A stretch of 64,000 nt of DNA from the NCBI GenBank assembly GCA_947650285.1, contig CANTFL010001471.1, positions 1 to 64,000 of the forward strand, read 5' to 3'. A program made the position numbers and the translations under genes. Source of the stretch: Hyaloperonospora brassicae. Taxonomy: Eukaryota > Oomycota > Peronosporomycetes > Peronosporales > Peronosporaceae. The notes under the pieces are model-generated. The model was not told the origin of the DNA. It was given only the letters and a program-made list of their open reading frames with translations, and searched no databases. This document shows, piece after piece, positions 7,699-59,335 of this stretch. Each line of letters opens with the position of its first letter. The stretch's first letter is position 1.

Positions 7699-8187
7699 GC
7701 TAGATCGTTGATTTTCGTTTGTACGACGAGGTGATCCACTTGCTTGGTCGAGCAACAATCAGACGCCGACGAGGGGGGCACGTGAGGTTTTTTGTCGTTT
7801 TGTGTTGTTGTTCCTTTTGTAAAGTTTTGGCTTTTTTACTAGCTCTGATTTTTCATGCTATAGAAACGAAAATCTGCACCAGAATAATCGCAAATATAGA
7901 AAAGAATGAAAAGAAAAAATAATGCATCACTGATGTGTACTGTGCGACCAGATATACTCATACCTGCGACTATTCATATGCCATTCACGTGTATCTGCTG
8001 CGTTCCATCTCTTATTACATGAATAATAACCTTTTTTTCTGCATACGTCGACAGACCTTTTGCAAGTAGGAAAGGTGCAGGGATGCTTCTGGCCAGACCT
8101 AGCAGTGTATTCTATCTTAGTTTGGAATGGCCATGTTGCTTCTATCGATTGTCATACACAGTATCTAATGGTACGGTATTGTTATCT
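7699..8187. other. Promoter region of NMT and left flank of the gypsy element
   Basis: A spacer of 489 bases. The part next to the NMT start is mixed in composition, and the rest is AT-rich with T runs. No gene seen. The five bases just before the LTR (8183-8187, TATCT) resemble those just after the other LTR (15714-15718, TATTT) and may be an imperfect target-site duplication. Confidence 0.5.
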
Positions 8188-8709
8188 TGTAACGGATTTA
8201 CACGTCGACTGGTAGTCGACAATAGGTGTGGTACACACAAGGGATGGGATCTCCTTTAAAGTAATAATAGAACACAAGTGTCAATTGTTGAAGACTGATG
8301 TCTGTCAACCATTGATTACGAGATCGTTTAATAGGTTTATTTAAAACATTAGTGAGTAGGTTAATTACGGTGTTCTTTTAGGTTAAAAGAAGAAATAAAA
8401 TTCAGTTCCCATTTTGATCCAAAAGACACGTGCCTCTCTGAGGCGTCTTGCGATCGTTAAGGAGGTAGCAACGCCTTGTTAAGGCAGCTACTCCTTGTGC
8501 ACTCAGTTCGTTTGATTCTTTGAATCGTTTGGTCCCCCTGGAACAGGGACCGTAAGCTCTCTGAGCTTGTTGACTCTTTGAGTCGGGTTCTTTGAACCAA
8601 ACATTAGCTCTCGAGGCTGTTGACTCTTTGAGTCGGGTTCGTAGAACCAAAGTTGCTCATTGAGCGTTAAGTCTTCTTCTGACTCAAAGAGCTGTGTAGC
8701 TCCGCTACA
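8188..8709 (+). repeat. 5' LTR of the chromovirus
   Basis: A 522-base LTR, TG...CA bounded, aligned with 15193-15713. It contains a 51-base tandem duplication (8555-8605 and 8606-8656, each with the core TTGACTCTTTGAGTCGGGTTC), absent from the LTR pieces at 1-218 and 57402-57929. A palindromic GTCGAC pair lies near its start (8205-8221). Confidence 0.92.
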
Positions 8710-8768: not shown

Positions 8769-9804
8769 ATGGAGCAATCCATACCCCTATCTGAGGCCCA
8801 AAAGGTTGCGCTTGAGAAGCTGACCGCGGTCCTAGGCCCTGAGTATGTGGAGCTTCTAGCTGCACAAGGTCCCGATGTGCTCAATGCACGAGTCGAGGCC
8901 TTCATGCACTACGAAACGGCTCTTATAGGGCAGGTTCAAAACCAAGTAGCGTCGTCTATGCCAACACGCTACGTGGCGATGCCAAATGAAGAGGCTAAGC
9001 CTCGTCCCCTTGGGGTGGACGTTATTCATTACTCCGGGAAGGAGGGGGGGAAACCTGACCCTCTGGATCCGTGATATTGAGATGGCCATGAGCTCTGGCC
9101 TTATCTCATTGGATTATCAGCGGGTCTCGCTGGCCATCCACAAGCTCGATGGAAGAGCTAGAGAATGGGCTCTGACGTGTGGCACGTCGGTCGACTTGGC
9201 GTTTCCCACATGGGATTCGATCAAGTTAGACCTATTGCGAGTTTTCTCGCCGCCTAACCAGGCCTATCGCGTGCGCTCACGCTTCTTGTCTACCCGTCAG
9301 GGTAAGAATGAGTTAACGGACTACGTCCAAGAGTTGAGAGCTCTGATGGCTGCTATGCAGTCTGATCCTCTCCCTGAGACAGTATATGTGACTATCTTCA
9401 TGGAAGGTCGTCGTAATGACGTTGCCAGGACCGATGTGTTTTGGGTCCATCCCTCTACTTTTGAGGAGGCTGTTAGCATCGCTCATAATGCTGAACACAA
9501 CTTCAAGTCGGCCAGACTTGGTTGGAATGGGTACAACCCAAGCTTTCAAAGGGCAACCTCTGCGGGTACCTCGGCTTACTGTAAGCCAGAACCTATGGAT
9601 CTAAGCCATGCTGAAGATGAAGGTGAAGCGGAGCTTCATGTTGCAGATCAACGACAGGAAGTGAAACGCTGTTATATGTGCGAAAGCACTAAACACTTGC
9701 GTCCCACTTTTCCTGTGCGTAAGCAACAACCGACTCCTATGGGTCGAAACCCCAGCCACAACCAGAAACCTGGTATGGCACGGGGGAACGTCGACACCCA
9801 GTAG
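8769..9804 (+). pseudogene. gag (nucleocapsid), frameshifted
   Basis: Gag-like protein starting at the ATG at 8769. The frame breaks at a run of seven G (9044-9050) and continues in the next frame to 9804. Removing one G would join the two parts, so this is most simply a homopolymer indel. The central region (WIRDIEMAMSSGL, FLSTRQGKNELTDYVQELR) is the capsid-type retrotransposon gag domain. Near the end is a zinc-knuckle remnant, CYMCESTKHLRPTF, in which the last ligand of the CCHC pattern is Phe (TTT) instead of Cys. The second copy has Tyr (TAT) at the same place. Confidence 0.85.
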
Positions 9805-9860: not shown

Positions 9861-12800
9861 GTGAAACAGGGCTTAGCCCCACTGAGCTCTATGCCCGCCA
9901 GCACAGAGAGTGGATACAAGCCTGGCTTGTTAGTCGCCGACGCGAAGATTAAAGACTTTGAGAAGCATTGGTCGATCCTAATCGACTCCGGAGCATCATG
10001 CAATTATGATCGACGTCGTTCGTCTGAGGGAAGTCAGCGATATGCTGAAGCGCTCAAAGCGCATGAAGGTGATTCCATCACTGTTCGGTTAGCGACGGGT
10101 AGTCGCGTCACGGTGCCTTAAGTTCCGTTGAACTTAGGTGTGAAGTTTTTGGACTTTGACGGCATTGAACGCTGTCTTGTCCTCGATTTGGATTCGAGAT
10201 ACGATCTCATCCTGGGTATGGATTGGCTTGAACGCCATGAGCCATGGATAGATTGGAGGTCTAAGACCTTAGGCGCCACGCGCAATGTTTCTAGCGAAGC
10301 TTTGGAGAGTCATGAACCCACCTTTGCTAGGCAACAAAAGCGCTATTGGCGCGAGCCATTGACGGAAGATGTCAATGTGCCGGAGATTGGTATGTCAAAG
10401 TTAATTAACTCCAATGTCGATGACATCCATATTGAGCGGAGCTCCTTCACCGTATGTAAGGAGAGTTATACTCCGTTGAGTGATACTCGTTGTGATAATG
10501 AGTCACTGCATGCTGCAGGCATGGTTGACCTAGGGCCGAGACATCAAGAATGTAATCCCTCTGATGTGAGTTGGGTGGCACGTAAAATCCCACCGAGTGA
10601 GGGCGGCCGTGGTGGCACCTCACTGAATGTCGGTAATGACATTGATGGCGAGAAGCCAGAATGTTCAGGTCTAGGCCCGAATGTAGTACGTGAAGTGGTA
10701 CGTGTAAATTCACTGGGCGAAGTGTTCGGGTTACGTAACACTTTACCAGGTGTCGTTCAAGACATGAGCTCTCGTATAGAGCGTGCTACGATGAATAGCA
10801 ACCACGGGGACCCTAATGTCCCGGCCTCTAGGAGGCGTTAGGTTTCCTTGAGGAAACAATCTCATCGTAGGGTAGCAACTGTCAAGCGCCCAACGTCTAT
10901 GAAGTCACGAAGTGATAATAGTAATCATACACTATATACACTTGTCAACGGAGTGACTGGCCAGATTGATGGCAATATTAGTCTTGAGACTCTTCCATCC
11001 TTAGATACTCTCTTTGAACTAGACGAAATGTCTGACGGCGAATTTAGCCAAGCCTTACAGGCAGGAGAATTATACGGCTTAGTGGTCATGCGGTCGGATC
11101 TTGAGTTGAACTCCTCCTCGTTATTGGTCGAGTCTGTCCCTGAGGACACAAAGGCGGCATTGGATGCCCGTAGTGGACTGTCGATCCTTAAGGATCCTCT
11201 TGATCCGTTATATCCTTTGGTATAGGAGTTTCAGGACGTGATGTGTCACAACCCACCGTCCGTCTTGCCTCCCGATAGAGGTGTACGTCATGAAATTGAC
11301 TTGGTCCCTGGAACTAAATACTGCGTAACATGGCAATGGCCTTTACCGAAGGAACAGTGTGACGTCATGGACGACTTCTTTCGTGCAAAGCACGCGGCAG
11401 GAATTGTAAGTGGGAGCAAACCTCCACATTCCACACCGACCTTCTGTGTCAAAAGGACCAATGGGAAGTGACGCATTGTTCATGCTTAAAATAAGCTTAA
11501 TGCGGCCACCATCCCGTCTCAGACACCAATTCCGAGGAAGGGTGCTCTTCAGAATAATATGGTGGGATGTACAATGTACAGTGCGCTCGACTTAGTCGAT
11601 GGTTATTACCAACTTCTCATGCGAGAAAGCGATATTCCGCTGACAGCGGTCAGCACTCCAAGCGGTATGCTCTGGAAGTGGCTTGTTATGCAGCAAGAAA
11701 TTTATCAAATACCCCGGCTACATTCAATCGTCTTGTGAAACAATTGTTCAGACCTCATAGAGGTTATGCACAGACATACTTTGATGGCATCTTTGTCCAT
11801 AGTCGTGCTATGAACGGTCGTTTAGATGTGGACAATCACATTGAACCTTTACGAGCGGTGCTCGAGTGCATGCGCACGAATAAGTTGTACTCCAACGCGT
11901 CTAAGTGCATCTTTGGTGCAGAAGAGATTCCCTTTTTAGGGTGCTTTATTGGAAAGCGAGGCCTTAGAGCGGATCCCGCTAAGGTAAAAGCCATAGTTTA
12001 TTGGCCGGTTCCAAAGAACCAAATGGACTTACGTAAGTGGCTTGGCCTTGCCAATTACTTGCATAAGTACAGTGCGAACTACGCGATTATGGCTCGGCCA
12101 TTATCCAATCTCCGTAAAAAGGATGTGGATTGGTGCTGGATCAGCACCGAGCATGATGCTTTTCAAGCAGTAAAGGAGAGTCTCCTTCATGCGCCAACTT
12201 TGGATTTGCCTGATCCTGATCGATCTTTGAGTGTCGTCTGTGACGCATCTGACTTTGCCATAGGCAGCGCTTTGTTACAAACAGATAATGATGGACGGGA
12301 ACGCGTAATTGCGTTTGAGTCTCGGCAGCTGAAGGCTGCAGAAAAGAACTATCCTGTTCATGACAAAGAGCTACTTGCAATGAAGTACGCTCTCGTCAAA
12401 TTCAGAGTTCATCTTCTTGGCTCTAAGCCGTTTGTGATCGATACAGATCATGCGTCACTACGCACTGCGACCCAGTCGCCTCACCTCTCTCCGAGAATTG
12501 CTAGTTGGCTTTCCTTCTTTGCCGAGTATAAAGTCGAGGTGAAGTATAATCCGGGCAAGAAGAATGCTTTGGCTGATGCGTTATCACGCAGGCCTGACTA
12601 TGAGCTTGCTCATGTTACGACTCTATCGTCGTCGGTCACTGACCTAATCCGTACGGCATATGCCAAGGATGAACACTGTGTAGCTCTGCTACGTGCTCTA
12701 GGGAGCGACGAGTTCAAGGACTCAGACATAGAATTGTCGGCACGATTACGTGCGAGGTTACGTCGATATTCCATCGATCAAGGCCTATTGTGCTATAGAA

Positions 12801-14264
12801 TGGATGTGGAGGATACCCCTCGCATCTTTGTCCCTCATGATGAGGAGTTGAAGTATCGGATCCTCTATGAGTCACAAGATACTGCGTTGAGTGGTCATCT
12901 CGGTCGTGAGAAGACCTACGGATCAGTTAGCCAATGCTATTGGTGGCCCATACTATACAAATGGGTGAGCACATATGTGTGTACGTGTGAAACGTGTCAA
13001 CGGGTGAAAACCTCACCTCACGCGGCCGCGCCGCTGGCTAGTTTGCCTATACCCAAGGGGTGTTTAGAGTCCACCAGTATGGACTTCCTGTTCGGATTAC
13101 CGAAGGATTCGTATGGAAATACGGTTATTATGGTCTTTGTTGACCGCTTGATCAAGATGGCTAATTAAGCGGCGGTGCCGGATACCATTGATGGTGAAGG
13201 TACAGCGACGCTGTTTATCGATCGCGTGTTTCGACAACACGGTTTTCCGTTGGCAATTGTCTCTGATAGAGATCCTCGCTTCACTGGGAAGTTTTGGAAG
13301 TCCATCTTCAAGGTGCTCGGCACACGTTTGGACATGTCCACAGCGGATCCTCCGCAGACTGATGGTCAAACCGAGCGAGTGAATCGCATCATCGGTGACA
13401 TCTTGCGCACTGTTTGCGCTGAAACGTCTAATCGTTGGAGTTCGATGCTCGCTGTCGTTAAGTTTGCGTTGAATAACGCCGTGCATGCCTCCACCAGCTA
13501 CACACCGTTTTACGTGAATGATTTCACACACCCTCGCGTTCCGTTAACGCTACCACTACGTGGTTCAGGGATTGGTGCGGGAGGTGTTGCCGATCGGCTT
13601 GCTGATATCAGCCCTGCTACTGTTCAAAAACAGGTTTGCGAGTTTCTCGCAACGCGATTTCAAGACAAAGTTGCGCCCGCGCTTCATTGGACCATTCACG
13701 GTCGTCGCCAAGAAGGGACTTGCGTATACGCTCAACCTTCCGCGCAAACTGAGCACACACCCCGTGTTCTACGTTAGTTTGCTTAAGCCGTATCGGGATC
13801 CGTCCTACGTGAACTTGGAGGCGCTTGCGCCGGGTAGGTTGGCCTTGTCATCGGTTGCTGAATCCGTATCAGGAGGTCAATCTGAGCCTCCATCCGGGCT
13901 TGGCCCAATTCCAACGCCTGGACACGGACTCGCATCGCGTCAAACGCCTTCTGGGTCTTACCCAATGTCTCACGGAGACCACTCAGCTCGAGAAGCACCT
14001 TCTCATGCTCCTCCTTTGGTATACCGACCACTTCCGACGCTGCTCGATGAGCAAGGGAACCGCCAGTTCCATGTGGAGCGACTCCTGAAACGACGTCGTC
14101 GTCAGGGCCAATACCAGTATCTGGTAAAGTGGCGAGGGTACCCGGAGTCGGAGAACTCGTGGGAGTTTGAGACACCCCTTCGGCAGGTTTGCCCATACGC
14201 CTGGGATGTTTTTAAACATCGTGGCAGAGGTCATGCCTCGACCGAGAGCGCTTCTCACCAATAG
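9861..14264 (+). pseudogene. pol: protease, RT, RNase H, integrase, chromodomain (multiple stops)
   Basis: Domains in order: aspartic protease with active-site IDSGAS (Asp codon near 9984) and ILGMDWL downstream; reverse transcriptase (from about 11250); RNase H (VCDASDFAIGSALLQTD, about 12235); integrase with an HHCC finger (about 12895-13005) and DDE core (MDFLFG, SDRDPRF, TERVNR); then FIGPFTVVAKKGLAYTLNLPR and LLKPYRDPS; and a chromodomain at about 14067-14225 (HVERLLKRR, YLVKWRGYPESENSWE). In-frame stops occur at 10119, 10839, 11223, 11469, about 11483 and 13166. The frame shifts near 11690 and near 13655, the latter with apparent loss of a segment before the integrase C-terminus. The RT catalytic motif reads YFDG: the second Asp is Gly (GGC, 11786-11788). 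The element cannot move on its own. Confidence 0.9.
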
Positions 14265-15084
14265 TGGTGGAGGCAGGTGGGTAGTTGGGTACCGCTTGAC
14301 CAACACCCACATCAATCGGCACAGCCGGAGCATAGCGTGTGTGAGTTCGCAACTGGCCTCTGGCCTTAAGCTTGGCGTAATCATACCGAAGCTTTAGTTC
14401 TAGGCGAACATCTGCCACATCGGCACTTGCTCTGAGAGCTAAAACGCTGCTGAGGTGTCGTTTCCGATGCACCTAGCAAACGAAAGCGTTGTATTCTTCC
14501 TCCTGAGATTTTCCTGCGAGTAAGAGGATGGGTATGCCCTTCATCGACGGAACCGGTGCATCCCGTGCTTGCGTGTCAAGTCGAAACTTGTATTGACTTT
14601 GAGTCGTCAAGTGGGGTTACAGGTACCTCTTACAAAGTGCCTGTCGACTCGCCACCTCATCAGAAGATGTAGGCTCAGCGACAATGGCCCACGTTGCCAA
14701 AGAATGACCTGTCGCTTGACGTATACACTCTTCCACATTGAGTGGTGTGAACAGATAGCCACGACGACCCTCAAGAGTTGCAGCAAGCTACATACGGCGT
14801 TGAGGGATCTCCTCTCGTTGGATAGACAGCTGCTGTTGCTCACCAAGCGGATTAGTAATGATGGCATCGCCCACGATAAGTTTTTGATGCGGCGCCGATG
14901 GCGCGTTGGCTTCGCCACGCTCGGCAAATGGGTTTGATGCAGTATGAGGCGGTGCCTCTTGCACTGGTGAGTCGGACATTGTATTCTCTTCACTATGGAT
15001 ATCGGTGTCGCTACCATTATCCACCTCCACATCGATGCCAAGGTAAGACGAGAGAGTCGAGGACTCATGGGGTGGCAATGCCAT
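13783..15084 (-). pseudogene. Additional antisense ORF of the chromovirus (4 stops, single frame)
   Basis: On the strand opposite gag-pol, one frame runs 434 codons from an ATG at 15084 (MALPPHESS) to a TAA at 13783 (end RTDPDTA). It is interrupted only by TAG at 14788-14790, TAA at 14617-14619, TAG at 14473-14475 and TAA at 14212-14214, with no frameshift. About 20 stops would be expected by chance over this length. The second family copy (58040-59335, plus strand) has the same start region, the same end and about 432 codons. The protein has an acidic, Ser/Pro-rich N-terminal part, a basic middle (RKRHLSSVLALRA, LRYDYAKLKARGQL) and a C-terminal heptad-like segment (LSGLRETLGKTQKAF, LELGQARMEAQIDLLI) that should form a coiled coil. 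It overlaps the integrase end and chromodomain of pol (13783-14264). Function unknown; I recognise no family. Confidence 0.7.
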
Positions 15085-15180: not shown

Positions 15181-15192
15181 GGTGGGGGATGG
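15181..15192 (+). promoter_or_regulatory. Polypurine tract before the 3' LTR
   Basis: GGTGGGGGATGG directly precedes the TG of the 3' LTR, apart from two T the tract is purine, and it is where plus-strand priming is expected. The second copy has an equivalent G-rich tract on the minus strand just beyond 57929. Confidence 0.65.
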
Positions 15193-15713
15193 TGTAACGG
15201 ATTTACACGTCGACTGGTAGTCGACAATAGGTGTGGTACACACAAGGGATGGGATCTCCTTTAAAGTAATAATAGAACACAAGTGTCAATTGTTGAAGAC
15301 TGATGTCTGTCAACCATTGATTACGAGATCGTTTAATAGGTTTATTTAAAACATTAGTGAGTAGGTTAATTACGGTGTTCTTTTAGGTTAAAAGAAGAAA
15401 TAAAATTCAGCTCCCATTTTGATCCAAAAGACACGTGCCTCTCTGAGGCGTCTTGCGATCGTTAAGGAGGTATCAACGCCTTGTTAAGGCAGCTACTCCT
15501 TGTGCACTCAGTTCGTTTGATTCTTTGAATCGTTTGGTCCCCCTGGAACAGGGACCGTAAGCTCTCTGAGATTGTTGACTCTTTGAGTCGGGTTCTTTGA
15601 GCCAAACCTTATCTCTCGAGGCTGTTGACTCTTTGAGTCGGGTTAGTAGAACCAAAGTTGCTCATTGAGCGTTAAGTCTTCTTCTGACTTTGGAGCTGTG
15701 TATCTTCGCTACA
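15193..15713 (+). repeat. 3' LTR of the chromovirus
   Basis: A 521-base partner of 8188-8709. The first about 280 bases carry at most two differences from the 5' LTR. Most of the remaining changes lie in the last 150 bases, around the 51-base tandem duplication and the final 30 bases. Confidence 0.92.
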
Positions 15714-16361
15714 TATTTCGTGTAACTATCGCCTTGGCGGTAGAGCTGAATATAAAAGAGGTGAAACCGGCGGTGTCAAGATGACGCGTACACAACGTCG
15801 TAGCGATGTTTCAGGTATGGTTAGGTGCTACTGTACGACAAATGAGCAAATATCGCAAGAGCCGACATAACATAGAAGACTTGGAGGTTGCTGGTGCGGT
15901 TGGAGGTATGTGACGAAGTGACCCCCTTATGTGATACTGACACCAACAATATGTCAACATGGATAACATCTTGATTGATAATATTCTAAACATTCACCCA
16001 GCTGAGCAAAGATTGAAGAAGTATTAGCGGCAAAGATATTGTGCGGTACTGCTTCACTTGTTGATTGATATAGGCCATTACATCAATTTACTGAACAATT
16101 AATAGCTGCTAGACGCGCGCAATGGGTGTTGTGCAGGTAGCCAAATATGTGACTTGAACTTCATTGTAATCGAAGTAATATCAAAAAGGTATACTAGAAA
16201 AGACCTTGACTATCGATGAAGTACAATCATACTGACCTACCTCTGCATGCACAGTAGGCGTCACATTCCAAAGCACTAGCCTATGCTATGGTCATTGTAG
16301 GTAGCTTATGCTGTGTCGGTACAATCATCAATGCTCATGACACTTACTACGAAATTCAGTC

Positions 16362-39383: not shown

Positions 39384-39713
39384 TTGCATACCATCATAGC
39401 AGGGCACTTGAACGTCACACAAAGGGGGTTGTGTTTATTCCCCCCCCCAGCCACCAGACACTCACATCGTCCACACATCAACAACAACAATACAGCCACA
39501 TGTTTTGATCGCCGCTCGAGACTGACTGACTGACAGGCTGACTGACTGACTGACTGACTGGCTGATGTCGGTACATAACGACAAGATAACCGACATCGCG
39601 GTCACTGACATCGGCCACCAGACAAAACCAGACACCTCCACCATCTTGCTCGTGGTCGCCTTCTAGCATGCACCGTCGGTTCCAGCCACCAGTCCGTGGC
39701 CATCCATCGACGA

Positions 39714-39737
39714 TCATCTCTCTGTCACCATTTATCC
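39714..39737 (+). promoter_or_regulatory. Possible Inr plus flanking element of the array gene
   Basis: TCATCTC (39714-39720) followed by CCATTTATCC (39728-39737) resembles the paired initiator and flanking promoter region of oomycete genes. It recurs in every unit and would give a 5' UTR near 390 bases. An alternative TTCATTCCACTCCC site, present from unit 2 on (for example 41078-41091), lies about 680 bases upstream of the ATG. Confidence 0.25.
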
Positions 39738-40114
39738 GAGACCATATCCACGAAACGCACGGCGGAATCCAAACTTCGCTCGCTCGCTTGAAGCTCCCTT
39801 CCACGATCGTGACTCGAAACGCGATCCAAACACGATCCAAACACGCGCACGTTTCAACCATACACTCGATCCGCTTGGTCTACTCCATCAATCGAAGCAG
39901 TCTCGATGACGCTTCGTGACGAGTCACTCGTCGCAACACCAGCCCACTCGCCAGCTCGTCTATCCACCCTGCTCCTCACTCACTCACTCACTCACAAACC
40001 GACTGGCACTACCACACCACCACGTAGCGACCAAGTACTCCACCTGACCAACTCACCGGACAACCGACCAACCGACCGACCGACCAACCAACTGACCGAC
40101 AAGCCGACTCGATC

Positions 40115-40483
40115 ATGAAGCTCAACACTTTCGGCGTCACCGCGCTAGTCGCTGTAGCAAGCGTCACATCCGCCACCGACTTCCAGCCAGCACTACGAGC
40201 ACTTGCCGCGGCGGAACCAGCTGCACCCAACGCTGACATGCTCACCGCGGGCCCGACCGAGAGACAATCGCCTTCTGTTGAGGCTGCTGCAGCTACGGGC
40301 AAGCAGTCCACCGCCGTCGTCGACGCTGAAGGCAAGAAGTCCAAGGAGTGGTGGGGAGGAGGCTTGGGATGGGGAGGAGGCTTGGGATGGGGACGTCCAT
40401 GGGGTGGCTTTGGTGGATACGGTGGATACGGCGGTGGCTGGGGTGGATACGGCGGTGGATACGGTGGCGGATGGGGATGGTAG
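40115..40483 (+). CDS. Secreted Gly/Trp/Tyr-rich protein, array copy 1
   Basis: 122 residues. Residues 1-20 are a clear signal peptide (Lys2, hydrophobic VTALVAVA, cleavage after SVTSA), so the protein is secreted. Mature part: an Ala/Pro-rich acidic spacer (21-77), then a tail from Trp79 with repeated GGLGWG, GGYGG and GGGWG blocks ending GWGW, containing eight Trp and four Tyr and no Cys. RALA (28-31) and TER (48-50) are at best degenerate versions of the RxLR and EER effector motifs. A structural wall protein, an effector or an antimicrobial-type peptide are all possible; I know no assigned function. This copy has Gln64 (CAG) and Gly7. Upstream it differs from all others by one extra A in the repeated GATCCAA motif (about 39841), an extra CTC before the TCAC run, and the C run at 39437-39445. 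Confidence 0.88.
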   Translation: MKLNTFGVTALVAVASVTSATDFQPALRALAAAEPAAPNADMLTAGPTERQSPSVEAAAATGKQSTAVVDAEGKKSKEWWGGGLGWGGGLGWGRPWGGFGGYGGYGGGWGGYGGGYGGGWGW

Positions 40484-41761
40484 ACGGCACGACTCTTGGA
40501 CACCGCGCTCGCTGACATGCTGCCACACACTCAGACGGACAGACGCACGAACGAGCCGACACTCCAGCCGAGCGAACAGAATCAGCATGCACCTTCCGCC
40601 GCCTCGCTTTTGTTCGCGGAGCTGTTTGTCGGTACTTCGGTCGCCGCTTGGCCCAGCATGTCGTGTCGACGATGGACGACTCGACCACCTTCTCGCTCAG
40701 CGGTGTGGCTTCGTAAAAGCTCGCCGCTACATATTGTCGAGCTTTGCAACCAGTAGTCAACCACCTCGTTACGATCAACACGATTTCGTATCAGCACGTT
40801 CAGATCACCTTGTTCAGACCATCACGTCCGTATCTGCGCGATCTTATCTACATGTCCACAACTGCTCGTTCTTCGAGTCAACACGTTCTCTCCTAGCGCT
40901 ACGGTCATGCTCCGTTCGGTCGCTCCGCTCGGTCGCTCCTTCCGTACTCGTCAATCGCCAGATAGTGTAGTAGTCGCCCGTGCTCGAACAAACAACAGAC
41001 AAATGCTGCGCTGCGGCATTCGTACCCCTTGCATAACGTCATAGCAGGGCACTTGAACGTCACAGTAAGGTCCTTGTGTTCATTCCACTCCCAAGCCACC
41101 AGACATCACATCGTCCACACATAACAACAACAATACAGCCACCTGCTTCGATCACCGCTCGAGACTGACTGACTGACTGACAGGCTGACTGACTGACTGA
41201 CTGACTGACTGGCTGATGTCGGTACATAACGACAAGATCACCGACATCGCGGTCACTGACATCGGCCACCAGACAAAACCAGACACCTCCACCATCTTGC
41301 TCGTGGTCGCCTTCTAGCATGCACCGTCGGTTCCAGCCACCAGTCCGTGGCCATCCATCGACGATCATCTCTCTGTCACCATTTATCCGAGACCATATCC
41401 ACGAAACGCACGGCGGAATCCAAACTTCGCTCGCTCGCTTGAAGCTCCCTTCCACGATCGTGACTCGAAACGCGATCCAAACACGATCCAACACGCGCAC
41501 GTTTCAACCATACACTCGATCCGCTTGGTCTACTCCATCAATCGAAGCAGTCTCGATGACGCTTCGTGACGAGTCACTCGTCGCAACACCAGCCCACTCG
41601 CCAGCTCGTCTATCCACCCTGCTCACTCACTCACTCACTCACAAACCGACTGGCACTACCACACCACCACGTAGCGACCAAGTACTCCACCTGACCAACT
41701 CACCGGACAACCGACCAACCGACCGACCGACCAACCAACTGACCGACAAGCCGACTCGATC

Positions 41762-42130
41762 ATGAAGCTCAACACTTTCGCCGTCACCGCGCTAGTCGCT
41801 GTAGCAAGCGTCACATCCGCCACCGACTTCCAGCCAGCACTACGAGCACTTGCCGCGGCGGAACCAGCTGCACCCAACGCTGACATGCTCACCGCGGGCC
41901 CGACCGAGAGACAATCGCCTTCTGTTGAGGCTGCTGCAGCTACGGGCAAGCAGTCCACCGCCGTCGTCGACGCTGAAGGCAAGAAGTCCAAGGAGTGGTG
42001 GGGAGGAGGCTTGGGATGGGGAGGAGGCTTGGGATGGGGACGTCCATGGGGTGGCTTTGGTGGATACGGTGGATACGGCGGTGGCTGGGGTGGATACGGC
42101 GGTGGATACGGTGGCGGATGGGGATGGTAG
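41762..42130 (+). CDS. Secreted Gly/Trp/Tyr-rich protein, array copy 2
   Basis: Same protein as copy 1 except Gly7 is Ala (GCC) in the signal peptide, a change seen in no other copy and unlikely to harm secretion. It shares Gln64, the CTC codon before Thr44-Ala45, and the downstream GATGGACGAC with copy 1 only, so copies 1 and 2 form one subgroup at the left end. Confidence 0.88.
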   Translation: MKLNTFAVTALVAVASVTSATDFQPALRALAAAEPAAPNADMLTAGPTERQSPSVEAAAATGKQSTAVVDAEGKKSKEWWGGGLGWGGGLGWGRPWGGFGGYGGYGGGWGGYGGGYGGGWGW

Positions 42131-43405
42131 ACGGCACGACTCTTGGACACCGCGCTCGCTGACATGCTGCCACACACTCAGACGGACAGACGCACGAACG
42201 AGCCGACACTCCAGCCGAGCGAACAGAATCAGCATGCACCTTCCGCCGCCTCGCTTTTGTTCGCGGAGCTGTTTGTCGGTACTTCGGTCGCCGCTTGGCC
42301 CAGCATGTCGTGTCGACGATGGACGACTCGACCACCTTCTCGCTCAGCGGTGTGGCTTCGTAAAAGCTCGCCGCTACATATTGTCGAGCTTTGCAACCAG
42401 TAGTCAACCACCTCGTTACGATCAACACGATTTCGTATCAGCACGTTCAGATCACCTTGTTCAGACCATCACGTCCGTATCTGCGCGATCTTATCTACAT
42501 GTCCACAACTGCTCGTTCTTCGAGTCAACACGTTCTCTCCTAGCGCTACGGTCATGCTCCGTTCGGTCGCTCCGCTCGGTCGCTCCTTCCGTACTCGTCA
42601 ATCGCCAGATAGTGTAGTAGTCGCCCGTGCTCGAACAAACAACAGACAAATGCTGCGCTGCGGCATTCGTACCCCTTGCATAACGTCATAGCAGGGCACT
42701 TGAACGTCACAGTAAGGTCCTTGTGTTCATTCCACTCCCAAGCCACCAGACATCACATCGTCCACACATCAACAACAACAATACAGCCACCTGCTTCGAT
42801 CACCGCTCGAGACTGACTGACTGACTGACAGGCTGACTGACTGACTGACTGACTGGCTGATGTCGGTACATAACGACAAGATAACCGACATCGCGGTCAC
42901 TGACATCGGCCACCAGACAAAACCAGACACCTCCACCATCTTGCTCGTGGTCGCCTTCTAGCATGCACCGTCGGTTCCAGCCACCAGTCCGTGGCCATCC
43001 ATCGACGATCATCTCTCTGTCACCATTTATCCGAGACCATATCCACGAAACGCACGGCGGAATCCAAACTTCGCTCGCTCGCTTGAAGCTCCCTTCCACG
43101 ATCGTGACTCGAAACGCGATCCAAACACGATCCAACACGCGCACGTTTCAACCATACACTCGATCCGCTTGGTCTACTCCATCAATCGAAGCAGTCTCGA
43201 TGACGCTTCGTGACGAGTCACTCGTCGCAACACCAGCCCACTCGCCAGCTCGTCTATCCACCCTGCTCACTCACTCACTCACTCACAAACCGACTGGCAC
43301 TACCACACCACCACGTAGCGACCAAGTACTCCACCTGACCAACTCACCGGACAACCGACCAACCGACCGACCGACCAACCAACTGACCGACAAGCCGACT
43401 CGATC

Positions 43406-43774
43406 ATGAAGCTCAACACTTTCGGCGTCACCGCGCTAGTCGCTGTAGCAAGCGTCACATCCGCCACCGACTTCCAGCCAGCACTACGAGCACTTGCCGC
43501 GGCGGAACCAGCTGCACCCAACGCTGACATGCTTACCGCGGGCCCGACCGAGAGACAATCGCCTTCTGTTGAGGCTGCTGCAGCTACGGGCAAGGAGTCC
43601 ACCGCCGTCGTCGACGCTGAAGGCAAGAAGTCCAAGGAGTGGTGGGGAGGAGGCTTGGGATGGGGAGGAGGCTTGGGATGGGGACGTCCATGGGGTGGCT
43701 TTGGTGGATACGGTGGATACGGCGGTGGCTGGGGTGGATACGGCGGTGGATACGGTGGCGGATGGGGATGGTAG
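43406..43774 (+). CDS. Secreted Gly/Trp/Tyr-rich protein, array copy 3
   Basis: First copy with Glu64 (GAG) in place of Gln and CTT at Leu43. The downstream sequence reads GATGGAAGAC. The encoded protein is identical to that of copies 4 to 7. The upstream spacer keeps the CAACAACAACAATACAGCC form also seen in unit 2. Confidence 0.88.
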   Translation: MKLNTFGVTALVAVASVTSATDFQPALRALAAAEPAAPNADMLTAGPTERQSPSVEAAAATGKESTAVVDAEGKKSKEWWGGGLGWGGGLGWGRPWGGFGGYGGYGGGWGGYGGGYGGGWGW

Positions 43775-45043
43775 ACGGCACGACTCTTGGACACCGCGCT
43801 CGCTGACATGCTGCCACACACTCAGACGGACAGACGCACGAACGAGCCGACACTCCAGCCGAGCGAACAGAATCAGCATGCACCTTCCGCCGCCTCGCTT
43901 TTGTTCGCGGAGCTGTTTGTCGGTACTTCGGTCGCCGCTTGGCCCAGCATGTCGTGTCGACGATGGAAGACTCGACCACCTTCTCGCTCAGCGGTGTGGC
44001 TTCGTAAAAGCTCGCCGCTACATATTGTCGAGCTTTGCAACCAGTAGTCAACCACCTCGTTACGATCAACACGATTTCGTATCAGCACGTTCAGATCACC
44101 TTGTTCAGACCATCACGTCCGTATCTGCGCGATCTTATCTACATGTCCACAACTGCTCGTTCTTCGAGTCAACACGTTCTCTCCTAGCGCTACGGTCATG
44201 CTCCGTTCGGTCGCTCCGCTCGGTCGCTCCTTCCGTACTCGTCAATCGCCAGATAGTGTAGTAGTCGCCCGTGCTCGAACAAACAACAGACAAATGCTGC
44301 GCTGCGGCATTCGTACCCCTTGCATAACGTCATAGCAGGGCACTTGAACGTCACAGTAAGGTCCTTGTGTTCATTCCACTCCCAAGCCACCAGACATCAC
44401 ATCGTCCACACATCAACAATGCAGCCACCTGCTTCGATCACCGCTCGAGACTGACTGACTGACTGACAGGCTGACTGACTGACTGACTGACTGGCTGATG
44501 TCGGTACATAACGACAAGATAACCGACATCGCGGTCACTGACATCGGCCACCAGACAAAACCAGACACCTCCACCATCTTGCTCGTGGTCGCCTTCTAGC
44601 ATGCACCGTCGGTTCCAGCCACCAGTCCGTGGCCATCCATCGACGATCATCTCTCTGTCACCATTTATCCGAGACCATATCCACGAAACGCACGGCGGAA
44701 TCCAAACTTCGCTCGCTCGCTTGAAGCTCCCTTCCACGATCGTGACTCGAAACGCGATCCAAACACGATCCAACACGCGCACGTTTCAACCATACACTCG
44801 ATCCGCTTGGTCTACTCCATCAATCGAAGCAGTCTCGATGACGCTTCGTGACGAGTCACTCGTCGCAACACCAGCCCACTCGCCAGCTCGTCTATCCACC
44901 CTGCTCACTCACTCACTCACTCACAAACCGACTGGCACTACCACACCACCACGTAGCGACCAAGTACTCCACCTGACCAACTCACCGGACAACCGACCAA
45001 CCGACCGACCGACCAACCAACTGACCGACAAGCCGACTCGATC

Positions 45044-45412
45044 ATGAAGCTCAACACTTTCGGCGTCACCGCGCTAGTCGCTGTAGCAAGCGTCACATCC
45101 GCCACCGACTTCCAGCCAGCACTACGAGCACTTGCCGCGGCGGAACCAGCTGCACCCAACGCTGACATGCTTACCGCGGGCCCGACCGAGAGACAATCGC
45201 CTTCTGTTGAGGCTGCTGCAGCTACGGGCAAGGAGTCCACCGCCGTCGTCGACGCTGAAGGCAAGAAGTCCAAGGAGTGGTGGGGAGGAGGCTTGGGATG
45301 GGGAGGAGGCTTGGGATGGGGACGTCCATGGGGTGGCTTTGGTGGATACGGTGGATACGGCGGTGGCTGGGGTGGATACGGCGGTGGATACGGTGGCGGA
45401 TGGGGATGGTAG
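45044..45412 (+). CDS. Secreted Gly/Trp/Tyr-rich protein, array copy 4
   Basis: Coding sequence as copy 3. Its spacer is shortened by loss of repeated CAA triplets and reads ATCAACAATGCAGCC (about 44411), making this the shortest period (1638 bases from copy 3 to 4). Confidence 0.88.
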   Translation: MKLNTFGVTALVAVASVTSATDFQPALRALAAAEPAAPNADMLTAGPTERQSPSVEAAAATGKESTAVVDAEGKKSKEWWGGGLGWGGGLGWGRPWGGFGGYGGYGGGWGGYGGGYGGGWGW

Positions 45413-46683
45413 ACGGCACGACTCTTGGACACCGCGCTCGCTGACATGCTGCCACACACTCAGACGGACAGACGCACGAACGAGCCGACACTCCAGCCGA
45501 GCGAACAGAATCAGCATGCACCTTCCGCCGCCTCGCTTTTGTTCGCGGAGCTGTTTGTCGGTACTTCGGTCGCCGCTTGGCCCAGCATGTCGTGTCGACG
45601 ATGGAAGACTCGACCACCTTCTCGCTCAGCGGTGTGGCTTCGTAAAAGCTCGCCGCTACATATTGTCGAGCTTTGCAACCAGTAGTCAACCACCTCGTTA
45701 CGATCAACACGATTTCGTATCAGCACGTTCAGATCACCTTGTTCAGACCATCACGTCCGTATCTGCGCGATCTTATCTACATGTCCACAACTGCTCGTTC
45801 TTCGAGTCAACACGTTCTCTCCTAGCGCTACGGTCATGCTCCGTTCGGTCGCTCCGCTCGGTCGCTCCTTCCGTACTCGTCAATCGCCAGATAGTGTAGT
45901 AGTCGCCCGTGCTCGAACAAACAACAGACAAATGCTGCGCTGCGGCATTCGTACCCCTTGCATAACGTCATAGCAGGGCACTTGAACGTCACAGTAAGGT
46001 CCTTGTGTTCATTCCACTCCCAAGCCACCAGACATCACATCGTCCACACATAACAACAATGCAGCCACCTGCTTCGATCACCGCTCGAGACTGACTGACT
46101 GACTGACAGGCTGACTGACTGACTGACTGACTGGCTGATGTCGGTACATAACGACAAGATAACCGACATCGCGGTCACTGACATCGGCCACCAGACAAAA
46201 CCAGACACCTCCACCATCTTGCTCGTGGTCGCCTTCTAGCATGCACCGTCGGTTCCAGCCACCAGTCCGTGGCCATCCATCGACGATCATCTCTCTGTCA
46301 CCATTTATCCGAGACCATATCCACGAAACGCACGGCGGAATCCAAACTTCGCTCGCTCGCTTGAAGCTCCCTTCCACGATCGTGACTCGAAACGCGATCC
46401 AAACACGATCCAACACGCGCACGTTTCAACCATACACTCGATCCGCTTGGTCTACTCCATCAATCGAAGCAGTCTCGATGACGCTTCGTGACGAGTCACT
46501 CGTCGCAACACCAGCCCACTCGCCAGCTCGTCTATCCACCCTGCTCACTCACTCACTCACTCACAAACCGACTGGCACTACCACACCACCACGTAGCGAC
46601 CAAGTACTCCACCTGACCAACTCACCGGACAACCGACCAACCGACCGACCGACCAACCAACTGACCGACAAGCCGACTCGATC

Positions 46684-47052
46684 ATGAAGCTCAACACTTT
46701 CGGCGTCACCGCGCTAGTCGCTGTAGCAAGCGTCACATCCGCCACCGACTTCCAGCCAGCACTACGAGCACTTGCCGCGGCGGAACCAGCTGCACCCAAC
46801 GCTGACATGCTTACCGCGGGCCCGACCGAGAGACAATCGCCTTCTGTTGAGGCTGCTGCAGCTACGGGCAAGGAGTCCACCGCCGTCGTCGACGCTGAAG
46901 GCAAGAAGTCCAAGGAGTGGTGGGGAGGAGGCTTGGGATGGGGAGGAGGCTTGGGATGGGGACGTCCATGGGGTGGCTTTGGTGGATACGGTGGATACGG
47001 CGGTGGCTGGGGTGGATACGGCGGTGGATACGGTGGCGGATGGGGATGGTAG
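46684..47052 (+). CDS. Secreted Gly/Trp/Tyr-rich protein, array copy 5
   Basis: Coding sequence as copies 3 and 4. The spacer shares the AACAATGCAGCC form with units 4 and 6, but reads ATAACAACAATG. This is the last unit with CCCAGCATG downstream of the gene (47221). Confidence 0.88.
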   Translation: MKLNTFGVTALVAVASVTSATDFQPALRALAAAEPAAPNADMLTAGPTERQSPSVEAAAATGKESTAVVDAEGKKSKEWWGGGLGWGGGLGWGRPWGGFGGYGGYGGGWGGYGGGYGGGWGW

Positions 47053-48326
47053 ACGGCACGACTCTTGGACACCGCGCTCGCTGACATGCTGCCACACACT
47101 CAGACGGACAGACGCACGAACGAGCCGACACTCCAGCCGAGCGAACAGAATCAGCATGCACCTTCCGCCGCCTCGCTTTTGTTCGCGGAGCTGTTTGTCG
47201 GTACTTCGGTCGCCGCTTGGCCCAGCATGTCGTGTCGACGATGGAAGACTCGACCACCTTCTCGCTCAGCGGTGTGGCTTCGTAAAAGCTCGCCGCTACA
47301 TATTGTCGAGCTTTGCAACCAGTAGTCAACCACCTCGTTACGATCAACACGATTTCGTATCAGCACGTTCAGATCACCTTGTTCAGACCATCACGTCCGT
47401 ATCTGCGCGATCTTATCTACATGTCCACAACTGCTCGTTCTTCGAGTCAACACGTTCTCTCCTAGCGCTACGGTCATGCTCCGTTCGGTCGCTCCGCTCG
47501 GTCGCTCCTTCCGTACTCGTCAATCGCCAGATAGTGTAGTAGTCGCCCGTGCTCGAACAAACAACAGACAAATGCTGCGCTGCGGCATTCGTACCCCTTG
47601 CATAACGTCATAGCAGGGCACTTGAACGTCACAGTAAGGTCCTTGTGTTCATTCCACTCCCAAGCCACCAGACATCACATCGTCCACACATAACAACAAT
47701 GCAGCCACCTGCTTCGATCACCGCTCGAGACTGACTGACTGACAGGTGACAGGCTGACTGACTGACTGACTGACTGGCTGATGTCGGTACATAACGACAA
47801 GATAACCGACATCGCGGTCACTGACATCGGCCACCAGACAAAACCAGACACCTCCACCATCTTGCTCGTGGTCGCCTTCTAGCATGCACCGTCGGTTCCA
47901 GCCACCAGTCCGTGGCCATCCATCGACGATCATCTCTCTGTCACCATTTATCCGAGACCATATCCACGAAACGCACGGCGGAATCCAAACTTCGCTCGCT
48001 CGCTTGAAGCTCCCTTCCACGATCGTGACTCGAAACGCGATCCAAACACGATCCAACACGCGCACGTTTCAACCATACACTCGATCCGCTTGGTCTACTC
48101 CATCAATCGAAGCAGTCTCGATGACGCTTCGTGACGAGTCACTCGTCGCAACACCAGCCCACTCGCCAGCTCGTCTATCCACCCTGCTCACTCACTCACT
48201 CACTCACAAACCGACTGGCACTACCACACCACCACGTAGCGACCAAGTACTCCACCTGACCAACTCACCGGACAACCGACCAACCGACCGACCGACCAAC
48301 CAACTGACCGACAAGCCGACTCGATC

Positions 48327-48695
48327 ATGAAGCTCAACACTTTCGGCGTCACCGCGCTAGTCGCTGTAGCAAGCGTCACATCCGCCACCGACTTCCAGCC
48401 AGCACTACGAGCACTTGCCGCGGCGGAACCAGCTGCACCCAACGCTGACATGCTTACCGCGGGCCCGACCGAGAGACAATCGCCTTCTGTTGAGGCTGCT
48501 GCAGCTACGGGCAAGGAGTCCACCGCCGTCGTCGACGCTGAAGGCAAGAAGTCCAAGGAGTGGTGGGGAGGAGGCTTGGGATGGGGAGGAGGCTTGGGAT
48601 GGGGACGTCCATGGGGTGGCTTTGGTGGATACGGTGGATACGGCGGTGGCTGGGGTGGATACGGCGGTGGATACGGTGGCGGATGGGGATGGTAG
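48327..48695 (+). CDS. Secreted Gly/Trp/Tyr-rich protein, array copy 6
   Basis: Coding sequence as copies 3-5. It is distinguished by a rearranged microsatellite (GACAGGTGACAGG, about 47741) upstream and is the first unit with CTCAGCATG in place of CCCAGCATG downstream (48863), a variant carried by all later units. Confidence 0.88.
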   Translation: MKLNTFGVTALVAVASVTSATDFQPALRALAAAEPAAPNADMLTAGPTERQSPSVEAAAATGKESTAVVDAEGKKSKEWWGGGLGWGGGLGWGRPWGGFGGYGGYGGGWGGYGGGYGGGWGW

Positions 48696-49975
48696 ACGGC
48701 ACGACTCTTGGACACCGCGCTCGCTGACATGCTGCCACACACTCAGACGGACAGACGCACGAACGAGCCGACACTCCAGCCGAGCGAACAGAATCAGCAT
48801 GCACCTTCCGCCGCCTCGCTTTTGTTCGCGGAGCTGTTTGTCGGTACTTCGGTCGCCGCTTGGCTCAGCATGTCGTGTCGACGATGGAAGACTCGACCAC
48901 CTTCTCGCTCAGCGGTGTGGCTTCGTAAAAGCTCGCCGCTACATATTGTCGAGCTTTGCAACCAGTAGTCAACCACCTCGTTACGATCAACACGATTTCG
49001 TATCAGCACGTTCAGATCACCTTGTTCAGACCATCACGTCCGTATCTGCGCGATCTTATCTACATGTCCACAACTGCTCGTTCTTCGAGTCAACACGTTC
49101 TCTCCTAGCGCTACGGTCATGCTCCGTTCGGTCGCTCCGCTCGGTCGCTCCTTCCGTACTCGTCAATCGCCAGATAGTGTAGTAGTCGCCCGTGCTCGAA
49201 CAAACAACAGACAAATGCTGCGCTGCGGCATTCGTACCCCTTGCATAACGTCATAGCAGGGCACTTGAACGTCACAGTAAGGTCCTTGTGTTCATTCCAC
49301 TCCCAAGCCACCAGACATTCACATCGTCCACACATCAACAACAACAATACAGCCACCTGCTTCGATCACCGCTCGAGACTGGCTGACTGACTGACTGACA
49401 GGCTGACTGACTGACTGACTGACTGGCTGATGTCGGTACATAACGACAAGATAACCGACATCGCGGTCACTGACATCGGCCACCAGACAAAACCAGACAC
49501 CTCCACCATCTTGCTCGTGGTCGCCTTCTAGCATGCACCGTCGGTTCCAGCCACCAGTCCGTGGCCATCCATCGACGATCATCTCTCTGTCACCATTTAT
49601 CCGAGACCATATCCACGAAACGCACGGCGGAATCCAAACTTCGCTCGCTCGCTTGAAGCTCCCTTCCACGATCGTGACTCGAAACGCGATCCAAACACGA
49701 TCCAACACGCGCACGTTTCAACCATACACTCGATCCGCTTGGTCTACTCCATCAATCGAAGCAGTCTCGATGACGCTTCGTGACGAGTCACTCGTCGCAA
49801 CACCAGCCCACTCGCCAGCTCGTCTATCCACCCTGCTCACTCACTCACTCACTCACAAACCGACTGGCACTACCACACCACCACGTAGCGACCAAGTACT
49901 CCACCTGACCAACTCACCGGACAACCGACCAACCGACCGACCGACCAACCAACTGACCGACAAGCCGACTCGATC

Positions 49976-50344
49976 ATGAAGCTCAACACTTTCGGCGTCA
50001 CCGCGCTAGTCGCTGTAGCAAGCGTCACATCCGCCACCGACTTCCAGCCAGCACTACGAGCACTTGCCGCGGCGGAACCAGCTGCACCCAACGCTGACAT
50101 GCTTACCGCGGGCCCGACCGAGAGACAATCGCCTTCTGTTGAGGCTGCTGCAGCTACGGGCAAGGAATCCACCGCCGTCGTCGACGCTGAAGGCAAGAAG
50201 TCCAAGGAGTGGTGGGGAGGAGGCTTGGGATGGGGAGGAGGCTTGGGATGGGGACGTCCATGGGGTGGCTTTGGTGGATACGGTGGATACGGCGGTGGCT
50301 GGGGTGGATACGGCGGTGGATACGGTGGCGGATGGGGATGGTAG
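49976..50344 (+). CDS. Secreted Gly/Trp/Tyr-rich protein, array copy 7
   Basis: Protein identical to copies 3-6, but Glu64 is written GAA, a synonymous change shared only with copies 8 and 9. It has a private TTCTCTCTCAGC downstream (about 50552). Confidence 0.88.
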   Translation: MKLNTFGVTALVAVASVTSATDFQPALRALAAAEPAAPNADMLTAGPTERQSPSVEAAAATGKESTAVVDAEGKKSKEWWGGGLGWGGGLGWGRPWGGFGGYGGYGGGWGGYGGGYGGGWGW

Positions 50345-51620: not shown

Positions 51621-51989
51621 ATGAAGCTCAACACTTTCGGCGTCACCGCGCTAGTCGCTGTAGCAAGCGTCGCATCCGCCACCGACTTCCAGCCAGCACT
51701 ACGAGCACTTGCCGCGGCGGAACCAGCTGCACCCAACGCTGACATGCTTACCGCGGGCCCGACCGAGAGACAATCGCCTTCTGTTGAGGCTGCTGCAGCT
51801 ACGGGCAAGGAATCCACCGCCGTCGTCGACGCTGAAGGCAAGAAGTCCAAGGAGTGGTGGGGAGGAGGCTTGGGATGGGGAGGAGGCTTGGGATGGGGAC
51901 GTCCATGGGGTGGCTTTGGTGGATACGGTGGATACGGCGGTGGCTGGGGTGGATACGGCGGTGGATACGGTGGCGGATGGGGATGGTAG
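51621..51989 (+). CDS. Secreted Gly/Trp/Tyr-rich protein, array copy 8
   Basis: Carries Thr18 to Ala (GCA) two residues before the predicted signal cleavage site, shared only with copy 9, plus GAA at Glu64. Ala at this place keeps a small residue and should still allow cleavage. The upstream spacer has private changes (ATTCATATCGTCTACACATC, about 50966; CATATTCACG, about 51254). Confidence 0.88.
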   Translation: MKLNTFGVTALVAVASVASATDFQPALRALAAAEPAAPNADMLTAGPTERQSPSVEAAAATGKESTAVVDAEGKKSKEWWGGGLGWGGGLGWGRPWGGFGGYGGYGGGWGGYGGGYGGGWGW

Positions 51990-58039: not shown

Positions 58040-59335
58040 ATGTCATCGCCACCCGAATAGTCTTCGAATCTTTTTTTCTTACCTCGGAATTGGTGTAGAG
58101 GTAGAGTATGGTAGCGATACCAATGTCCATGGTAAAGAGAGGACAACTGCACGACTCACCAGTGCAAGAGGCAACGCCGCATACTGCACTGAACCCATTT
58201 GCCGAGCGTGCCGAAGTCAAGGCACCCTCGGCCCAGCATCAAACACCTAAAGTGGCCGATGCAATCATCACCAATCCGCTCAATGATCAAAAGCAGTTAA
58301 TTATCTGACAAGAGGATAGTGATCGGATCCATACTCAGCTTGCTGCAACTCTTGTGGGTCGCCTTGGAAATGTGTTCACTCCACTTAGTGTGAAAAAACG
58401 TATACGTCAAACGGCAGGCCGTTCGTTGGTAGCGTGAGCCATTGAAGCTGAACCCACATCCCCAGAAGAGGTTGAGAGTCGACAGGCACTTCAAAAAAAG
58501 TACTCGCAGCCTTATTGGTAGACATAAAGTTGATTAAAGTTGAGACTTAACACGCAAGCACGGGGTGCACCGGTTTCACCGATAAAGCGTATACCCACCC
58601 TACGATTCGCAGGCGAATCACTGGAGGAACAAAACAACGCGTTTGTTCGAAGGGTGCACCGGAAACGACACCTCATCAGCGTGTTAGCTCTAAGAGCAAG
58701 TGTTAATGTGGAAGACGTTCGTCTAGAGCGAAAGCTTCAATATGACTACGCCAAGCGTAATGCCAGAGGCCAGTTGCGAACTCGCATTCGATATGCTCCG
58801 GCTGTGCCGGCTGATGTTAGTGTCGGTCAAGCGGAGACCAACTATCCACCCGATTACACCACTATTGGTGAGAAGCGTTCTCTCTCTGAGGATGACCCTT
58901 GCCGCGATGTTTCAAAACATTCAAGGCGAATGGCAATCCTGCCGAAAGGGCGTCTTAAAATTATATGCATTTCAGACTTCCCTCGCCACTTCACCAGATA
59001 CTGGTATCGACAATGATGACGTCGTCGTTTCAGGAGTCTCTACACATGAAACTGGCGGTTTACTTGATCATCTAGCAGATTCGGGGGAGGTAGGTACACA
59101 GAAATATTATCTTGAGATTCTGCGTCGCGAAGTAAGCTGTCTCCGCGAGATCTTGGGTAAAAACCGGAGTGCTCTCAGCGCAACAAAAGCTCGCCTTCAG
59201 ACGGTAGAGTTGAGTCAAACCCGCATGGAGGCTCAGATTGACATCCTGGTTCTAATTAAGAAGCCGATGGATATGCCACATGTCGCAGTGCAAGCGACTC
59301 ATAGTTCACGAGGGACGGATCCCGATACGGCTTAA
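58040..59335 (+). pseudogene. Additional antisense ORF of the second chromovirus copy
   Basis: Counterpart of 13783-15084. It starts MSSPPE at 58040 and ends GTDPDTA at 59335, about 432 codons, but broken by a stop after the first six codons, further stops, and frameshifts between about 58060 and 58150 and near 58975. Conserved blocks include DSPVQEATPHTALNPFAER, RKRHLISVLALRAS, NARGQLRT, RYAPAVPADV and TTIGEKRS. The C-terminal coiled-coil-like part reads CLREILGKNRSALSATKARL and continues with RMEAQIDIL. Similarity to copy 1 is about three residues in four over the best 86 codons. Confidence 0.68.

Follow-up and report, generated by a model that had tools for sequence, protein, structure and literature searches.

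The Antisense Frame and Its Host Element

The stretch of DNA considered here, 64,000 nucleotides from the oomycete Hyaloperonospora brassicae (assembly GCA_947650285.1, contig CANTFL010001471.1, positions 1 to 64,000 of the forward strand; hereafter the window), contains two copies of a retrotransposon that carries, antisense to gag-pol, a long reading frame reaching from near the 3′ long terminal repeat (LTR) back over the end of pol. This antisense frame is almost certainly a genuine protein-coding gene: as comparison of its copies shows, it stayed open under protein-level purifying selection while the element multiplied, with single copies decaying about neutrally after insertion. An earlier description made from the letters of the window alone (the original prediction) had reported a 434-codon antisense frame with only four stops in copy 1 and a matching frame in copy 2, and both were recovered:

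13783..15084, minus strand: antisense frame in copy 1, with 433 codons and a stop codon, interrupted by internal stops at codons 99, 156, 204 and 291
58040..59335, plus strand of the window, since the element is inverted: antisense frame of copy 2, ATG to TAA, with seven in-register stops and indels

In copy 1, the frame runs from ATG to TAA (434 codons counting the stop), sits opposite the chromodomain of pol, and is separated by 108 bases from the 3′ LTR. Codons 1-273 are free of pol, and codons 274-433 (160 codons) overlap it. Codon-by-codon alignment of copy 2 reveals 7 stops, with 8 columns gapped and 2 inserted. When one open copy underwent 2000 dinucleotide shuffles, its longest run without a stop, taken over all six frames, averaged 144 codons and reached at most 300, compared to 433 in the antisense frame.

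The remaining features of copy 1 are as follows:

8188..8709, plus strand: 5′ LTR, flanked at 8183-8187 by TATCT
8986..9804, plus strand: gag (Retrotrans_gag, Ty3 capsid), by domain match
11567..13168, plus strand: pol, with the end of reverse transcriptase, RNase H and the integrase zinc-binding domain; frame broken in copy 1
13560..14264, plus strand: 3′ end of pol, with a Tf2-1-like SH3 domain and the chromodomain; the pol stop ends at 14264
14067..14183, plus strand: chromodomain (Pfam Chromo, E 7.6e-13), by domain match
15181..15192, plus strand: polypurine tract adjoining the 3′ LTR, read by eye
15193..15713, plus strand: 3′ LTR, 97.5% identical to the 5′ LTR, flanked at 15714-15718 by TATTT

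Judged by its domains, the element that carries the antisense frame is a chromodomain-bearing Ty3/Gypsy retrotransposon. Gag, reverse transcriptase, RNase H, integrase and a C-terminal chromodomain lie between the LTRs in the layout of a chromovirus, with pol broken in copy 1, and the flanks TATCT and TATTT represent a target-site duplicate with one mismatch. The reverse transcriptase match in copy 1 (29.2 bits) is slightly below the Pfam cut-off of 29.6, and the integrase core was matched in a single copy (L061), also below its cut-off.

Genomic Copies and Subfamilies

The claim that the frame is kept in two independent copies proved to be an understatement: the 100.56 Mb genome holds 746 candidate copies, and the 40 that were scored, among them the copy in the window, are all 89-100% identical. 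Stops were tallied for each copy individually rather than from a family consensus, in a first set of 30 of the 40 scored copies plus copy 2. The antisense frame is fully open in three of the 30 copies and interrupted by 1-8 stops in the others, while the two remaining frames on that strand contain 5-11 and 20-29 stops. Its ATG is kept in all 30 copies and in copy 2. At the protein level, a genome search gave 102 matches, 31 of which span at least 429 of the 433 residues without a stop, and searches with more distant proteins as queries gave 95-104 matches each. Stop-free copies thus exist in both sets, and the family is not one in which many stops close the frame throughout.

The protein-level genome search yielded 30 further loci, of which 19 were duplicates and 11 were added. 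Among the copies compared, three subfamilies can be distinguished, A (which includes copy 1), B and C, with equal frame length in all of them; outside pol, DNA identity to A is 83-89% for B and 61-67% for C. Thirteen subfamily C loci were picked as listed stop-free, and in four of these (L063, L066, L067, L069) the retrieved sequence either lacks the start codon or has it right at its edge. A favorable ATG context (AACACCATGG) is found in 32 of the 41 ATG-bearing copies, and identical bases occur in one copy of subfamily C.

Two side observations concern how the subfamilies relate to each other. Synonymous divergence (dS) between A and C is about 1.3 outside pol but about 0.31 within pol, and one copy, L052, is A-like outside pol and equally near to C within the overlap. 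The divergence contrast and this mosaic therefore hint that the antisense region may have been exchanged between elements as a module.

Selection on the Antisense Frame

Outside pol, the ratio of replacement to silent substitutions per site (dN/dS) in the antisense frame is 0.36, 0.36 and 0.45 for three open A-B pairs, 0.32 within C, and 0.21-0.24 for A-C and B-C, with A-C dS (about 1.3) close to saturation. Copy 1 against copy 2 gives 0.46, and open copies against copy 2 give 0.30-0.45. The value near 1 that is expected of a frame without constraint was therefore not found (0.21-0.46). Constraint is strongest in codons 101-250, the lowest of three segments, with dN/dS of 0.20 and 0.14 in two pairs. 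Four of the five other frames outside pol yield 0.78-2.02; the fifth, the mirror frame, yields 0.31-0.59, yet contains 18-24 stops per copy across the whole length. The original prediction had singled out one block, 14212-14472, with hand-counted differences between the two copies of 6, 16 and 22 at antisense codon positions 1, 2 and 3. The recount gives 6, 17 and 22, so that only position 2 was off by one (dN 0.133, dS 0.388), and the block is mostly outside pol, whose stop ends at 14264.

A different picture emerges for changes private to one copy. Among 35 A copies, these are spread evenly over the codon positions (83/82/78), and 9 of the 242 that were classified are nonsense (3.7%, compared to 3.8% expected). 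The even spread of private changes, set against the low dN/dS between subfamilies, indicates that single copies decay freely and that constraint acts while elements pass on.

Within the overlap, the two strands appear to divide the constraint between them. In the coiled-coil segment, the ratio of replacement to silent differences (pN/pS) is 0.21-0.50 in the antisense frame and 1.25-2.2 in pol; in the chromodomain segment, it is 0.75-2.0 in the antisense frame and 0.33-0.88 in pol. When only fixed differences are considered, the coiled-coil trend persists (5 v 1, 7 v 3, 9 v 4), but the chromodomain segment offers too few of them (1 v 2, 2 v 1, 1 v 3). A segregation of constraint between the structured parts encoded on the two strands is thus a trend, not proof. 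An antisense gene that shares its DNA with a chromodomain makes the conflict between two reading frames measurable.

Predicted Protein Architecture

An AlphaFold2 model built on 48 homologues has a mean predicted local distance difference test score (pLDDT) of 65 and a predicted template modeling score of 0.37, and divides the protein into four parts:

14851..15084, minus strand: acidic N-terminal tail, codons 1-78, predicted to be disordered, with pLDDT mostly below 50
14359..14850, minus strand: central domain predicted to be folded, codons 79-242, no part of which overlaps pol (AlphaFold models, alignment)
14017..14358, minus strand: disordered linker, codons 243-356, with a basic cluster resembling a nuclear localization signal (NLS); 14067-14183 lies opposite the chromodomain
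13858..14016, minus strand: codons 357-409, a predicted coiled coil facing the linker of pol that joins the integrase SH3 domain to the chromodomain

In four homologues, residues 1-75 of the tail have a net charge of -9 to -13. For the central domain, pLDDT block means are mostly 88-93 (67-78 near residues 101-120), and a second model, of the N-terminal half alone, agrees with the first. Beyond the central domain and the coiled coil, the greater part of the chain is modeled as disordered. The C-terminal coiled coil of the original prediction is borne out by a high-confidence model of residues 357-409, with block means of 87-97 from residue 361 onward, and the protein is likely to form a dimer through it. 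Each strand's structured part faces a disordered part of the other: the pol linker runs opposite the coiled coil, and the antisense linker opposite the chromodomain. A fold search returned no solved structure resembling either model and no viral structure resembling the first. An NLS-like cluster is present in 44 of 57 proteins according to a loose in-house pattern. The maximal 19-residue mean hydropathy in the same 57 proteins is 1.64, and thus no clear membrane segment is apparent by hydropathy.

Relatives and Age of the Overlap

A protein database search returned 99 relatives at E ≤0.01 (7993 candidates scored), with named members from Peronospora destructor, Peronospora effusa, Peronospora matthiolae, Hyaloperonospora arabidopsidis and H. 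brassicae, as well as Phytophthora ramorum, Phytophthora cactorum, Phytophthora idaei and Phytophthora citrophthora. A profile of 32 Phytophthora proteins added Phytophthora sojae, Phytophthora nicotianae, Phytophthora rubi, Phytophthora palmivora and Phytophthora fragariaefolia. In both searches, relatives bear no informative names (uncharacterized, hypothetical or unnamed), except for P0110, a gene model that fuses the antisense protein to a sense Tf2-1-like SH3 piece of integrase and hence has an SH3 name. In P0112, the antisense protein is fused to a start that, by eye, resembles the pol end of another retrotransposon. Both fusions are probably products of annotation or rearrangement. Thirteen proteins could be aligned with P0001, to which they are 33-74% identical, and have central-domain motifs in common. 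With matches admitted up to E 1, neither 8 proteins nor, subsequently, 48 homologues (25 of the 27 matched families viewed) showed a convincing Pfam domain of their own, and the protein is in this sense unrecognized, as had been proposed.

The age of the overlap was approached through proteins, not the relatives' DNA, by testing whether they fit opposite a chromodomain in the identical frame relation. For the genome's own open copy, reading backwards recovers 52 of 52 chromodomain residues. In all 16 homologues tested (chosen from 127), the backward-read chromodomain fits best at the homologous stretch, with scores of 172-273 compared to at most 146 in 120 shuffled proteins. Moreover, 10 of 10 homologues beat a null based on a simple substitution model (score P ≤0.002, kept pol residue count P ≤0.018), even with 39 of 53 residues changed. 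Because the matching stretch of the homologues still reads backwards as chromodomain, the overlap is probably older than the split of Peronospora, Hyaloperonospora and Phytophthora. P0114, P0115, P0116 and others are listed as hypothetical genes in P. sojae and other genomes, and their C-terminal parts also read backwards as chromodomain. Some oomycete "hypothetical proteins" might accordingly be transposon products.

A Second Chromovirus Family

As an intended negative control, the genome was searched for Pfam Chromo (150 of 2539 candidates scored) and the DNA opposite other chromodomains was read. Among the first five loci, one (L077) was a broken member of the first family, and the other four belonged to a distinct chromovirus family. 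Six separate loci of this second family were read: three have open antisense frames (complete in L079; cut at the end in L075 and L076) and three are broken (L078, L080, L081); L074 is also counted with this family. The open frames, of up to 534 codons, lie over the chromodomain. In L079 (1006-2607 of the locus, minus strand), the frame has no stops, compared to 14 and 34 in its two same-strand alternatives. When the encoded protein was searched in the genome, 67 of the best 81 matches, scored out of 3740 candidates, were stop-free. Outside pol, three pairs show silent/replacement codon counts of 4/7, 9/6 and 10/9, and counts by codon position against five copies range from 4/4/4 and 2/9/4 to 20/22/39.

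The second protein begins with an acidic stretch rich in serine and finishes with a coiled-coil-like region and a basic C-terminus; the coiled-coil-like region gives a weak leucine-zipper match (E 0.003) below the Pfam cut-off. The antisense proteins of the two families have no detectable similarity (hhalign probability 0.4%, hmmsearch E 0.47-1.9), with a second profile of only three near-identical rows. Since a second chromovirus family also carries an antisense frame, the intended control did not serve as one, and elements of this kind may generally have an antisense gene. Tentatively, antisense coiled-coil genes over the chromodomain could be general in oomycete chromoviruses and possibly invented repeatedly, at least two families with unalignable proteins sharing the plan of a structured part on each strand facing a disordered part on the other, and the protein might act with or against the chromodomain, setting where and when the element is active.

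Other Features of the Window

Apart from the retrotransposon, the window contains, at 39500-53900, a tandem array of nine units, each about 1.64 kb long and almost identical to the others. Each includes a plus-strand frame of 122 codons with a signal-peptide-like start and a glycine/tryptophan/tyrosine-rich end, and the array looks like an amplified gene for a small secreted protein.

Proposed Role and Alternative Explanations

The favored reading, by a modest preference, is that the frame is an accessory gene of a chromodomain Ty3/Gypsy family, placed antisense between pol and the 3′ LTR, and that its product is a nuclear dimeric regulator. Transcription would start from the side of the 3′ LTR, either within the LTR or in the 108 bases between the LTR and the ATG, and stranded RNA data are predicted to reveal antisense transcription from these elements. 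The product would be soluble, combining an acidic disordered tail, a folded domain that matched no solved structure, a basic NLS-like linker and a dimerizing coiled coil. It might enter the nucleus and adjust how copies of the element are transcribed or packaged in chromatin, similar to HBZ of human T-cell leukemia virus (HTLV) or gene23 of the plant element Grande. The nuclear regulatory role has about an even chance of being right.

Several points weigh against this reading. Stops common to at least two copies could reflect broken copies being copied on; 33 of 66 stops fall at codons hit in at least two of the 30 copies, but independent hits suffice, because stops placed at random would already average 29. 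Openness was the reason for choosing the copies of subfamily C and most of the A and B copies compared. Differences common to at least three A copies are not clearly constrained (12/23/20 by codon position; 19 silent, 33 replacement, 3 nonsense). Outside the overlap, dN/dS of pol is 0.05-0.11; the antisense protein evolves faster and may therefore be dispensable. No fold match points to DNA binding, and the predicted NLS is a pattern match only. Finally, the scan for promoter motifs upstream of the frame gave negative or weak results. The oomycete motifs INR and FPR are carried by a minority of genes in the study that defines them (PMC3599244, in the parts available), and they were sought together with DPEP upstream of the ATG in 10 copies. 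INR and FPR are absent in five A copies; L022 has both only at about -670, copy 2 has INR at -224 and FPR at -194, and three B copies show FPR alone, at -64. The loose DPEP motif carries little meaning, because it is present in 10 of 10 copies.

A less probable, though still appreciable, alternative is that the protein works in the particle or the pre-integration complex, e.g., as a coiled-coil cofactor of integrase and its chromodomain for nuclear entry or target choice. The superposition of the gene on the chromodomain, the analogous frame in a second chromodomain family and the predicted basic linker with coiled coil would all suit such a cofactor, and nuclear import is raised for plant antisense proteins in the available parts of PMC7264820. 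However, neither Pfam nor fold searches connected the protein with capsid, integrase or import factors, and overlapping genes do not imply that their products meet.

It is improbable that the element took up a host gene in reverse and that the protein retains its host function. Relatives are indeed listed as ordinary hypothetical genes in several genomes, but all 16 homologues tested carry the backward chromodomain and thus look element-borne, and no convincing Pfam family was found, although a distant host relative could escape searches that scored about 8000 candidates each. Decidedly improbable is that the antisense RNA is the functional product, pairing with pol mRNA and feeding small-RNA silencing, the open frame being incidental. 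Small RNAs of sense and antisense orientation have been reported over Gypsy elements in Phytophthora infestans (PMC3522703, as far as the accessible text goes), but such an RNA predicts neither protein-level selection outside pol, nor a conserved ATG context, nor alignable full-length proteins across genera. An envelope-like protein, which the location between pol and the 3′ LTR might suggest, is very improbable: the orientation is antisense, and no clear hydrophobic segment was seen in 57 proteins (no dedicated membrane or signal predictor was run). That pol codon usage or base composition alone keeps the frame open has a negligible chance: 160 of its 433 codons overlap pol, but the 273 outside it are open and constrained, and shuffles reach at most 300 codons.

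Comparison With Known Systems

Antisense additional open reading frames (aORF-3R) of LTR retrotransposons have been described in Grande (gene23), RIRE2, PvRetro13 (ORF2) and Boty (brtn) (PMC7264820, available in part; for brtn, see also the accessible text of PMC8365987), and the gene23 product is reported there to be nuclear and transcribed from its own promoter (PMC7264820). The original prediction had noted such frames in plant elements, and the fungal Boty has to be added to this known kind. Like these cases, the oomycete frame is antisense to gag-pol, lies between pol and the 3′ LTR, is present in many copies, has no clear homologues among known families, and is conserved as a protein, though less than pol. 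It differs in belonging to an oomycete chromovirus and in its 160-codon pol overlap including the chromodomain, which the available parts of PMC7264820 do not describe for the known cases. Retand, whose antisense TRP28 proteins are treated in PMC11963269 (available parts), is a non-chromovirus lineage, unlike the oomycete element, and none of the families listed up to E 1 for the 8 proteins or the 48 homologues (25 of 27 families viewed) is TRP28 (PF04195).

Among oomycete Ty3/Gypsy groups, which include Chronos and Archon (PMC5348765, available parts), Chronos has a chromodomain at the end of pol as well. In contrast to Chronos with its additional archaeal/plant-type RNase H, no extra RNase H was found in the pol frame at 11567-13168, which matched only the element's own families, or in the other pol pieces of the broken copy 1. 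The word "antisense" occurs 0 times in PMC5348765 as available, and no earlier description from oomycetes was found in the literature searched, to the extent that its texts were accessible, in line with the original prediction.

A further likeness is to HBZ of HTLV, also an antisense gene at the 3′ LTR end with a comparable acidic-basic-coiled-coil order. HBZ comprises an acidic N-terminal part, a basic region and a C-terminal zipper. The oomycete protein differs in its long folded middle domain, the elements are unrelated, and no bZIP family was among the Pfam matches listed for the 8 proteins and 48 homologues, so that its coiled coil is one without bZIP. To our knowledge, the function of retroelement antisense genes is open outside the HTLV group. 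The antisense-ORF class itself is known (PMC7264820, in its available parts); in the literature searched, no description was found of this protein family, its oomycete host group or the overlap with the chromodomain. Judged by layout, and with no tested Retand or HBZ domain in common, the antisense gene may work like the accessory genes of Grande, Retand, Boty or HTLV.
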